Shown here in pieces: positions 683 through 13,317 of a stretch of DNA of 33,441 nucleotides (position 1 is the first letter of the stretch; every line of letters begins with the position of its first letter). Made by a program: the position numbers and the translations under genes. The notes under the pieces were generated by a model. That model searched no databases and was not told the DNA's origin. It saw only the letters and a program-made list of their open reading frames with translations. The stretch is taken from the NCBI GenBank assembly GCA_012797845.1, contig JAAZOH010000005.1, forward strand, positions 1 through 33,441. The letters are read 5' to 3'. Source of the DNA: Candidatus Beckwithbacteria bacterium. Its GTDB lineage: Bacteria; Patescibacteriota; Microgenomatia; UBA1400; UBA1449.

Positions 683-892
683 CTAATTTGGAGGCGGTGC
701 ATGACAAGTGGCTATATCATCGTCCATCATAGTTCCGGCTCCATCAACCTGGCTTGTTAAAACTTCACCTCCTGAAAATTGTTGCTCAATTTGATCCTGA
801 TTATGACCATAAATTGGCGCTGAAAAAGCAACAACTGCAAAAGTAACCATGAATAGGAGAGAAAAAGCGGTTAGTAAAGATGGGGTTGGCAT
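683..892 (-). CDS. Small exported or membrane-anchored peptide, unknown
   Basis: A 69-residue ORF with a strong Shine-Dalgarno (AGGAGG, 6 bases before ATG 892). Residues 4-26 are a hydrophobic stretch (LLTAFSLLFMVTFAVVAF) that could be a signal peptide or a single membrane helix. The remaining 40 or so residues are polar and acidic (MMDDD) with a single Cys near the C-terminus and a final PPPN. The hydrophobic stretch has no clear positive charge before it, so a cleavable signal is uncertain. It is divergent from coaD and shares a 118-base promoter region with it. No family is recognised. The excellent ribosome site is the main evidence that it is real. Confidence 0.6.
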   Translation of the reverse strand: MPTPSLLTAFSLLFMVTFAVVAFSAPIYGHNQDQIEQQFSGGEVLTSQVDGAGTMMDDDIATCHAPPPN

Positions 893-1010: not shown

Positions 1011-1979
1011 ATGAATAAGTACCAGTTCGCTGCTTTAGGCGGCACTTTTGACCATCTTCACAAAGGCCATCAAACTTTGCTTACTCATGCTTTTTCAGTG
1101 GCTGAAAAGGTAGCAATTGGGATTACCAGAAATGGTATGAATAGCCATAAAGATTTAGCCTTTGCTATCCAAGATTTTGAGCTACGCAAGGCCGATATTG
1201 AAGCTTTTGCCAATGAGCGAGGCTGGCAAAATCGTTTTAATATAGTCGAATTACATGATATGTATGGTCCGACACTCGATGGTGAACAGATCGACTGTTT
1301 GGTCGTCAGCCCTTTGACAAAACCAGGAGCTGAAGCTATCAATCAAAAACGGCAAGAATTAGATAAACCGGTCTTACCTATTGAAGTTTGCCATCTGGAA
1401 GAAAGTAGTGATGGCCAACATATCAGCTCAACCAGAATTCGCGAAGGCGAAATTGATCGTGATGGTTTTGTGTATAGGCAGATATTTGACCATGATTTAG
1501 CTATGAGTGATATGCAAAAACAAATTTTAAAAGAACCATTGGGAGAACTGATACGAAACCCTGATTTAGAACAAATTGCTAGCAAGCTTGATACCAGACA
1601 ACTTAATGTAGCTATTGGTGATATTTCTTCGCTCTATGCTCATCAAAATAATTTGCCTGTTCAGGTATATGTGTTTGATAAGCGTGAACAGCGTCAAAAC
1701 CTAGAAACTTCAGTCGATAATTTTCTGCAAAGTCCAAATTTGATCACCTGCCAAAATCCTGCCGGTACTATCTCTCAAGAACTAGTTTCAGCTTTGCAAA
1801 GTGGTTTAACACATCGCCAACATCTCAAAATTGATGGCGAAGAGGATTTAGCACTTTTGCCGGCAATTTTATTTCTACCTCTTGGCAGCACTATTCTCTA
1901 CGGCCAACCCAATCAGGGTATTGTCCTTGTTACCGTAACTGAAGAAAAGAAACAATGGTGCAAAGAGCTCTTGATTTAG
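1011..1979 (+). CDS. Fused phosphopantetheine adenylyltransferase / DUF359 dephospho-CoA kinase (archaeal type)
   Basis: A 322-residue bifunctional CoA-pathway protein. Residues 1-160 form a nucleotidyltransferase domain: GGTFDHLHKGHQ at 10-21 holds the HxGH motif (H17, H20), and ISSTRIR at 138-144 is the second nucleotide-binding motif. The stretch around residues 98-114 (VVSPLTKPGAEAINQKR) is typical of archaeal/eukaryotic PPAT (COG1019) rather than bacterial CoaD. Residues 170-322 match archaeal DUF359, the GTP-dependent dephospho-CoA kinase: KEPLGELI, GDISS, NPAGTI, GEEDLALLPAI, then PLGSTILYGQP and VTVTEEKK. Together they would convert phosphopantetheine to CoA. Each domain assignment is strong by motif. 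Activity of both halves is inferred. The stop overlaps the end of the minus-strand 63-codon ORF by 4 bases. Confidence 0.9.
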   Translation: MNKYQFAALGGTFDHLHKGHQTLLTHAFSVAEKVAIGITRNGMNSHKDLAFAIQDFELRKADIEAFANERGWQNRFNIVELHDMYGPTLDGEQIDCLVVSPLTKPGAEAINQKRQELDKPVLPIEVCHLEESSDGQHISSTRIREGEIDRDGFVYRQIFDHDLAMSDMQKQILKEPLGELIRNPDLEQIASKLDTRQLNVAIGDISSLYAHQNNLPVQVYVFDKREQRQNLETSVDNFLQSPNLITCQNPAGTISQELVSALQSGLTHRQHLKIDGEEDLALLPAILFLPLGSTILYGQPNQGIVLVTVTEEKKQWCKELLI

Positions 1980-10329: not shown

Positions 10330-10941
10330 TCATTTGATATTTTCCGCTAATGCTTCTTGAGATGCCCAAAGTCCAATAAATTTTGGAGTTTCATTGAAGA
10401 ACTGGAAGACATATACTGCACGAATAGCTCCTTCTTGGATGTTTAGCTTACTCTTCAAGTCTTTAATGTCAAAACTTTTTGTATTAGTCTCCTGCCCCCT
10501 CATTTGAGGGACAATAATAAGCCCTACCTGACTGGAGCGGTATTTATTCGCTTTTTCATTGATGAATGCTGCAAGTTTTTCGTTAGCCCTATCTAAGGAT
10601 GTAGAATAAAATCTCTTTATTTGAAACGGATAAGCATACCCTTCAAGTTTATCAGCACTTACTGGAGCCAATGCAAAATCCACAGGCGTATCTTCTTCAT
10701 TATATGTTGTAAGGATTTCTCGTAACTGTTCCAGACTAGGTGTAAAGCGGTTGGGAAAGTTGTGCCTCTTGCTATTTTGTTCAAAGGTAATAACAAACTG
10801 TTGGTTTAGTTTTTCTTCAAAGTATTCCTTAGCATGAACACTAATGGCAAATTCATAATCCTTTGAGTGTACCCCTCTCCCATACTGTTTTAAATACTGT
10901 TTGAGAATTTCTGCGTTTAAGAAAAAGATGTTATGTTTCAT
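10330..10941 (-). CDS. Hypothetical protein, possible PD-(D/E)XK-like nuclease fold
   Basis: A 203-residue soluble protein of no recognised family, inserted between rplO and secY. The central part reads TPVDFALAPV (about 85-94), a gap, then FQIKRF (about 106-111). A hydrophobic strand with D followed by a strand with Q-x-K is the pattern of PD-(D/E)XK nucleases with Gln in place of Glu. A further strand QVGLIIVPQM follows after a helix. The N-terminus has a Tyr-rich helix (EILKQYLKQYGRG). It ends with TGA. A GATAAT box lies 6 bases before the ATG and no Shine-Dalgarno is seen. The fold suggestion is tentative. Confidence 0.6.
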   Translation of the reverse strand: MKHNIFFLNAEILKQYLKQYGRGVHSKDYEFAISVHAKEYFEEKLNQQFVITFEQNSKRHNFPNRFTPSLEQLREILTTYNEEDTPVDFALAPVSADKLEGYAYPFQIKRFYSTSLDRANEKLAAFINEKANKYRSSQVGLIIVPQMRGQETNTKSFDIKDLKSKLNIQEGAIRAVYVFQFFNETPKFIGLWASQEALAENIK

Positions 10942-11828: not shown

Positions 11829-12212
11829 ATGGAAATACCTGGATGGACAAAAGACGATATTTTAAGAGTAGAACAGTTAAACAAAAAGCACGGAGATAAT
11901 CATTTGCCTAAAACCAAACCCGAAGATGATAGTCCAACTTGGTGGTTTTATGAAAGGTTTATTCATATTTTTGAAGGCGATACGGATTTTAGTTTTGATG
12001 ATTTTGAAGAACAAGATTTTAGAAGTATTGATTGGCAAGAGTTAAAAATTGTAGTTCAAAAACTTAATGGTGAAGAAGCAGAGGAATATGATGAAGAAAA
12101 TTCTAGTGAAAATCAAAAGAAATCAAATATGCAACTTGTGAGAGATTTTCTTATAGATAGGTTTGGTAAAGATTTTGATATTCCAGATCCAGAAGAAATG
12201 TTTCAATCTTAA
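11829..12212 (+). CDS. Acidic hypothetical protein
   Basis: A 127-residue, strongly acidic protein of no family I recognise. It begins MEIPGWTKDDILRVEQLNKK and has TWWFYERFIHIFEG (about 37-50), a D/E/F-rich stretch, a low-complexity linker (EEAEEYDEENSSENQKK, about 81-97) and a C-terminal helix LVRDFLIDRFGKDFDIPDP. There is no signal peptide or membrane helix. It is 52 bases downstream of the HAD gene in the same direction but has its own promoter-like sequence. Function unknown. Confidence 0.65.
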   Translation: MEIPGWTKDDILRVEQLNKKHGDNHLPKTKPEDDSPTWWFYERFIHIFEGDTDFSFDDFEEQDFRSIDWQELKIVVQKLNGEEAEEYDEENSSENQKKSNMQLVRDFLIDRFGKDFDIPDPEEMFQS

Positions 12213-12264: not shown

Positions 12265-12687
12265 TTATGCTTGAAGCGCTTTGATAGCCGCTTTGGAAGC
12301 TGGAACTTTGAGAATTAGTTTGACTCCCGGATCTTTGTCAAACAAAATTTTGACGGTTTTAGTTTTTTCCGGAATCAATTTTTTCTTGGTCAAAGCTTTG
12401 AGATCTACTTCATCTCCAGCTTTAAAAACAGATAAGCTGGAACTTTGGATCAGTACTGGTTTTTCATTAAATGATTTCAGCCGGTTTTTACCCCGTAACC
12501 ATGGCGTCCGGCGGAAAAAGTCTTTATTGGTTTTAGTTCCTTCAAATAGCAATTTGGCTGTAGTTCGGGATTTCTGGCCTTTTTGACCTCGGGAGGAAGT
12601 ATGGCCACCTTTACCACTACCATAACCTCGACCAAGTCGTTTTTTGCCTCTACTAACTGATGCTGGTAATTGATCTAATGTCACCAT
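12265..12687 (-). CDS. rplO: 50S ribosomal protein L15
   Basis: A 140-residue L15 (uL15), a central 23S rRNA binder. The Gly-rich N-terminal extension GRGYGSGKGGHTSSRGQKGQ (about 19-38) and FEGTKTNKDFFRRTP are typical of the family. The C-terminal KILFDKDPGVKLILKVPASKAAIKAL is shorter and more divergent than average. It follows rpsE by only 9 bases, so rpmD is missing. It is the last gene before the operon is broken by the insert. Confidence 0.97.
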   Translation of the reverse strand: MVTLDQLPASVSRGKKRLGRGYGSGKGGHTSSRGQKGQKSRTTAKLLFEGTKTNKDFFRRTPWLRGKNRLKSFNEKPVLIQSSSLSVFKAGDEVDLKALTKKKLIPEKTKTVKILFDKDPGVKLILKVPASKAAIKALQA

Positions 12688-12696
12688 AGGTATTAT

Positions 12697-13317
12697 TTAT
12701 TTAGTCTTTTGTTTAATTTCTTTTTTGACTGTCTTTTTAATCTCTTTTTTAAAAACTGGTTTAGTAGCTACAGGTTTCTTAATTTCAGCTTTTTTCTCTG
12801 GTTTTGCTTCAGTTGGTTTAGTGACTTTGACTTTTTTCAGTTGAGCTAAAGCTTCAAAGGTAGCATAAACATTGGAAGCTTTATTGGCTGTTCCCATACA
12901 TTTGGTCACAATATTTTGGACTCCAAAAGCTTCAACCACAGCCCGGACTGGACCACCAGCAATCACGCCAGTACCTTCTGGAGCGGGTTTAAGTAAAACG
13001 ACCGCTGCACCACGTTTGTGATAGACCTGATGAGCAATAGTATTAGCTCCAACCAAATCAATTGAGACCATGTTTTTCTTGCCTTTTTTAACCGATTTTC
13101 TAATAGAGTTTAAAACGTCTGGAGCTTTGCTAAATCCAATCCCAGCCTTACCTTTGTGATCACCAATCACCACTAGGCTGGTAAAACTAATATTATTACC
13201 ACCTTTAGTCTTTTTAGAAACCCGTTTGATTTGGATGATTTTTTCATCAAATTCTTTTTCTTCCGGTTTCTGATGTGGATCTTGGTTGCGACGTTGTTGT
13301 CCTTTTGGGTTCATCAT
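12697..13317 (-). CDS. rpsE: 30S ribosomal protein S5
   Basis: A 206-residue S5 (uS5). The family core runs from [18 protein letters not shown] (about 24-41) through [20 protein letters not shown] and [20 protein letters not shown] to [19 protein letters not shown]. Beyond about residue 165 a Lys-rich low-complexity tail of about 40 residues ([20 protein letters not shown] and on) is added. The start is MM, so either Met could be used. It is followed directly by rplO. Confidence 0.97.

Follow-up and report, generated by a model that had tools for sequence, protein, structure and literature searches.

An archaeal-type fusion on a bacterial contig

The window, the whole 33,441-nucleotide stretch of DNA analyzed here, carries an open reading frame of 322 amino acids at positions 1011-1979 of the forward strand, in which an archaeal-type PPAT and a DUF359 dephospho-CoA kinase share one frame. 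The first-pass annotation had assigned both halves to archaeal families. Its motifs KEPLGELI, NPAGTI, GEEDLALLP and YGQP are all found in the protein, and profile scans bear the assignment out. In Pfam, CTP_transf_like (PF01467) matched residues 9-145 (E = 3.7e-10) and DUF359 (PF04019) matched residues 211-321 (E = 1.1e-28; 99.8 bits, cut-off 25). In NCBIfam, the archaeal-type PPAT model NF001985 (PRK00777; COG1019-type) scored 147.4 bits, over its cut-off of 104 (E = 3.3e-43), and delimits an N-terminal domain of residues 3-155 (positions 1017-1475, forward strand), whereas the bacterial CoaD model TIGR01510 stayed at 22 bits, far short of its cut-off of 103.3. The C-terminal kinase domain, residues 169-321 (1515-1973, forward strand), is delimited by NF041125, the model for GTP-dependent dephospho-CoA kinase (E = 5e-28). 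The scores of NF041125 (97.8 bits) and NF041124 (79.9 bits) lie under the equivalog cut-offs of 300 and 290, as expected because both models are limited to Thermococcales. No CoaE match (PF01121/TIGR00152) was found within the protein in either scan. By sequence, the closest PDB entries are the dephospho-CoA kinase 8jvc (2.6e-21) and the Archaeoglobus PPAT 3do8 (4e-19). An ordinary bacterial CoaD/CoaE identity is ruled out by the profile scores, the C-terminal half matching DUF359 and neither half grouping with those families.

Gene names read from the translations give the contig a bacterial order: rpoB, rpoC, S12, S7, fusA, tuf and the S10-spc-alpha ribosomal cluster, ending with L13-S9, which the fused gene adjoins on the opposite strand. 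L15 directly follows S5 (12265-13317) with no L30 gene between them, the usual arrangement in CPR. We infer a CPR host of the Microgenomates type. Its genome is a draft of 46 contigs, 1.28 Mb in size and listed as 100% complete. Contamination of the bin is ruled out because the contig is bacterial and the same fusion recurs in genomes of the same family and in a single-contig relative (G007). In the trees of both halves, the protein encoded by a genome of the same family (G001) is grouped as identical to that of 'Patescibacteria group bacterium UBA1449', and the kinase tree likewise pairs several other same-order proteins, as identical, with named records of Chisholm- and Beckwithbacteria.

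No conserved neighbor genes were found for the window's own group, the neighbors being lineage-specific, and Rfam gave no match in the window. Four open reading frames lack a Pfam match: 148-606 (152 aa), 683-892 (reverse strand, 69 aa), 10330-10941 (reverse strand, 203 aa) and 11829-12212 (127 aa). The 69-residue frame has a signal-peptide-like stretch at its start. The mRNA of the fused gene may be leaderless, because a TACAAT -10-like box lies about 9-14 bases 5' of the ATG and no clear Shine-Dalgarno sequence was seen ahead of it (990-1011).

Predicted structure and conserved residues

The AlphaFold2 model of the fused protein, computed from a 67-sequence alignment, has a mean pLDDT of 96.4 and a pTM of 0.92. 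In a Foldseek search with this predicted model, the dephospho-CoA kinases 8jvg, 8jvc and 8jvf filled the first four ranks and the archaeal PPAT 3do8 the next two, with all bacterial PPATs behind them. The kinase half matches the fold of 8jvg and 8jvc with a TMt of 0.77-0.83, and the PPAT half matches 3do8 with a TMt of 0.79-0.85 and E-values down to 1.3e-9.

In TK1697, the dephospho-CoA kinase of T. kodakarensis, the substitutions D48A, D67A and D125A impair growth, the first two severely (PMC6650551). The aligned residues of the window protein are D204, within G203-D204 (1617-1622, forward strand), D223 (1677-1679, forward strand) and D279, which closes the GEED stretch of residues 276-279 (1836-1847, forward strand). 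All three are Asp in 107 of 107 fused proteins, and G-E-E-D is retained in essentially all of them, at an overall identity to the window protein of mostly 29-46%. Nearly as conserved are the PPAT motifs HKGH (HxGH) and SSTRIR (SSTxIR). Within the nucleotide-binding motif GGTFDHLHKGH (residues 10-20; 1038-1070, forward strand), G11, D14, H17, G19 and H20 are invariant in alignment A2 and retained in 106 or more of the 107 fused proteins. Within ISSTRIR of the nucleotidyltransferase fold (residues 138-144; 1422-1442, forward strand), S140 is present in 105 and R144 in all 107.

Distribution of the fusion

DUF359 is found in 21 of the 53 genomes of the same order, always in open frames of 324-382 aa, and 20 of these 21 proteins align over both domains. 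Across the phylum sample, only nine of 287 genomes have DUF359, eight of them in the window's class (frames of 321-382 aa). A scan of named genomes found both domains in one frame at 80 of 80 loci. The CPR hosts are Roizman-, Gottesman-, Levy-, Woese-, Beckwith-, Chisholm-, Pace-, Kaiser- and Yanofskybacteria, and the archaeal hosts are Poseidoniales, Micrarchaeota and one Aenigmatarchaeota genome. In Thermoplasmatota, DUF359 is present in 55 of 60 genomes and mostly stands alone; PPAT and DUF359 share a frame of 340-391 aa in nine genomes. The archaeal-type fusion in a bacterial genome that the first-pass annotation pointed out is real, but it is not peculiar to this genome, being shared with many Microgenomates-type CPR, a few other CPR and archaea. 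A PPAT-DUF359 fusion was already reported from uncultured archaea in 2019 (PMC6650551). A literature search, with preprints and most subscription papers outside its reach, returned no paper on a DUF359 or dephospho-CoA kinase fusion in bacteria (CPR/Patescibacteria). The architecture is known; its CPR host range was not found described in the literature searched.

Longer frames of 486-555 aa occur at 13 Roizmanbacteria-type loci (L048, L071, L072, L073, L076, L078, L087, L094, L095, L097, L099, L100 and L104), where an archaeal-type NMN adenylyltransferase (NadM-type) is placed ahead of PPAT and DUF359. NF002243 matched at about 1e-34 to 1e-37 in the three of these frames that were scanned. 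An NAD synthase gene is nearby in 12 of the 13, and at 16 loci of the Roizmanbacteria type NadE adjoins the fused gene. At four loci outside the 13 (L034, L050, L064 and L070), the flank contains a NadM-like frame of its own. The three-domain protein looks like an NAD and CoA enzyme in a single chain. The NMN adenylyltransferase domain is absent from the window's fused protein.

Alternation with a CoaD-CoaE fusion

CoaE scored over its cut-off in six of the 53 same-order genomes, all of one family (f10); the frames measure 376-397 aa. Two of the six frames were scanned with NCBIfam, and both are CoaD-CoaE fusions (TIGR01510 and TIGR00152). The fusions of this kind seen in the family lie at L021:1009-2145, L023:390-1580 (reverse strand) and L022:1417-2556 (reverse strand), with an ADP-forming acyl-CoA ligase close by in L021 and L023. 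DUF359 and CoaE occur together in none of the 53 genomes, and nine of the ten f10 genomes have exactly one of the two kinase types. By chance, 21 and 6 genomes among 53 would show zero overlap with a probability of 0.04 if the genomes are taken as independent, which they are not; the weight therefore rests on the f10 pattern and the two fusions instead. Because their kinase halves are unrelated folds, the CoaD-CoaE and PPAT-DUF359 fusions arose independently, so that two unrelated enzyme pairs are fused in sister genera for one predicted job. Neither kinase was seen in 26 of the 53 genomes, some of them single-contig and 99% complete, and CoA completion would thus be dispensable in many close kin.

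Upstream steps and probable use of CoA

Profile searches of the 46-contig draft, which may overlook diverged or non-homologous enzymes, found no CoaE, no CoaBC (DFP) and no PanK I, PanK II (PF03630) or PanK III in the window's genome. The same search for CoaBC matched in 14 of 14 control genomes, and that for PanK II in 0 of 14. These absences agree with the salvage of phosphopantetheine that the first-pass annotation had proposed. Because neither CoaBC nor a pantothenate kinase is detectable, the organism probably completes CoA from an imported precursor of the phosphopantetheine type. Truncated CoA pathways needing an imported late precursor have been inferred for mycoplasmas, Rickettsia and Chlamydia (PMC8721197). 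One relative (G026) has the fusion and a type II PanK, without CoaBC, a gene set that fits pantetheine salvage; the type II gene lies at L178:1486-2220 (reverse strand), next to rubrerythrin.

The window's genome also encodes a 713-aa ADP-forming acyl-CoA ligase that adjoins a flavodiiron-type protein. Across the order, strong Succ_CoA_lig matches occur in 14 of 27 genomes with either CoA synthase and in 4 of 26 without (Fisher p = 0.008, kinship ignored).

Origin of the fusion

The concatenated tree sets every fused protein, whether bacterial or archaeal, apart from the stand-alone Thermoplasmatota proteins (99/96), and the PPAT tree shows the same split (91/99); the stand-alone archaeal sample is narrow, drawn mostly from Thermoplasmatota, with a single Thermococcus kinase and a single Archaeoglobus PPAT. 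The tree of the kinase half places the T. kodakarensis enzyme with the fused proteins of Poseidoniales (90/88). The fused archaea are placed at several points inside or next to the CPR fused proteins. Given this grouping of bacterial with archaeal fused proteins and the patchy distribution, exchange of the fused gene between the two domains of life is likely. A single proven transfer of known direction is unsupported, as AU tests leave three alternative groupings open: a single clade of CPR fused proteins (p = 0.119), a single clade of fused archaea (p = 0.208) and Poseidoniales with the stand-alone Thermoplasmatota (p = 0.444).

The first-pass annotation had offered either transfer or an old shared pathway. 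Of these, transfer is favored by the patchy distribution and the mixed CPR-archaeal group, while the second keeps some ground in the AU tests, which rejected neither a single CPR clade nor a single clade of fused archaea. Vertical descent from an early CPR (or CPR-archaeal) ancestor followed by many losses is an unlikely account, though one to be taken seriously, as it would agree both with a single CPR clade, which the AU test did not reject, and with the supported clades formed by the Levy-, Gottesman-, Chisholm- and Beckwithbacteria proteins. It is harder to reconcile with a fusion confined to nine of 287 phylum genomes, eight of them in one class, with archaeal fused proteins that lie inside or beside the CPR ones rather than apart, and with the alternation of two unrelated enzyme pairs in f10. 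Taking exchange between domains as the preferred reading, we give about even credence to a wider account, in which the fused archaeal-type module displaced CoaD/CoaE in much of one CPR class, passed between CPR and several archaeal lineages, alternates with a CoaD-CoaE fusion between genera of one family, and grew in Roizmanbacteria into an NMNAT-PPAT-DPCK protein for NAD and CoA synthesis.

Discussion

The protein is very probably an archaeal-type bifunctional CoA synthase that replaces the usual bacterial enzymes, with both activities and the preference for GTP predicted. The grounds are domain identity, fold, conserved catalytic residues, the lack of a counterpart bacterial kinase and the exclusion with the CoaD-CoaE fusion. 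The N-terminal COG1019-type PPAT would convert ATP and 4'-phosphopantetheine to dephospho-CoA, and the C-terminal DUF359 domain would phosphorylate its 3'-OH, probably with GTP, to give CoA. GTP preference of a DUF359 kinase is known for one archaeal enzyme only. The feed would most likely be phosphopantetheine or dephospho-CoA taken up from a host or the surroundings, and the CoA would be spent in at least one reaction, that of the ADP-forming acyl-CoA ligase.

Activity is not readable from sequence, and half of the relatives manage without a terminal CoA kinase. One could therefore suppose that only one half, for example the PPAT, is active and that DUF359 is a structural or regulatory remnant. 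We regard this as very improbable, since nearly every one of the 107 fused proteins preserves the three catalytic aspartates and G-E-E-D at an overall identity of about 30-45%, and no other dephospho-CoA kinase was detected in the genome. That the C-terminal domain phosphorylates another substrate, such as a different nucleotide-linked metabolite, is less probable still: DUF359 has the thiamine pyrophosphokinases as distant relatives (PMC6650551), and in the literature consulted only one archaeal member is biochemically characterized, but the kinase is fused to the enzyme producing its presumed substrate, it excludes CoaE fusions in sister genera, and its closest solved fold is a dephospho-CoA kinase.

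With a bifunctional CoA synthase as the preferred reading, DUF359, described as an archaeal family (PMC6650551), gains a wider range, since it seems to catalyze the last step of CoA synthesis in many CPR. Searches for coaD and coaE alone would wrongly score fusion-bearing genomes as unable to complete CoA. The swap of two unrelated fused pairs among sister genera is a clear-cut example, in nature, of gene fusion by convergence. The missing upstream genes yield a concrete prediction of the precursor that these cells import.

Among known systems, the PPAT-arCOG04076 fusions of uncultured archaea (AIF21550.1, group II/III euryarchaea; PMC6650551) likewise carry both domains on one chain. The Poseidoniales fusions sampled here share the domain order of the window protein, and the trees place them within or next to its fused group. 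The difference lies in the host, which here is a CPR bacterium with neither CoaBC nor PanK detected, whereas PMC6650551 describes the family from archaea only. TK1697 (8jvc, 8jvf, 8jvg) has the fold, the DUF359 profile and the three tested catalytic aspartates in common with the window's kinase; TK1697 stands alone, whereas the window's kinase is fused behind PPAT and its GTP preference is presumed. The CoaD-CoaE fusion of close relatives (L021 and L023; family f10) has the same predicted two-step function in one protein, but it is built from bacterial CoaD (TIGR01510) and P-loop CoaE (TIGR00152). Eukaryotic CoA synthase (COASY) likewise joins PPAT and dephospho-CoA kinase in one polypeptide, with a kinase of the CoaE type rather than DUF359 (PMC6650551).
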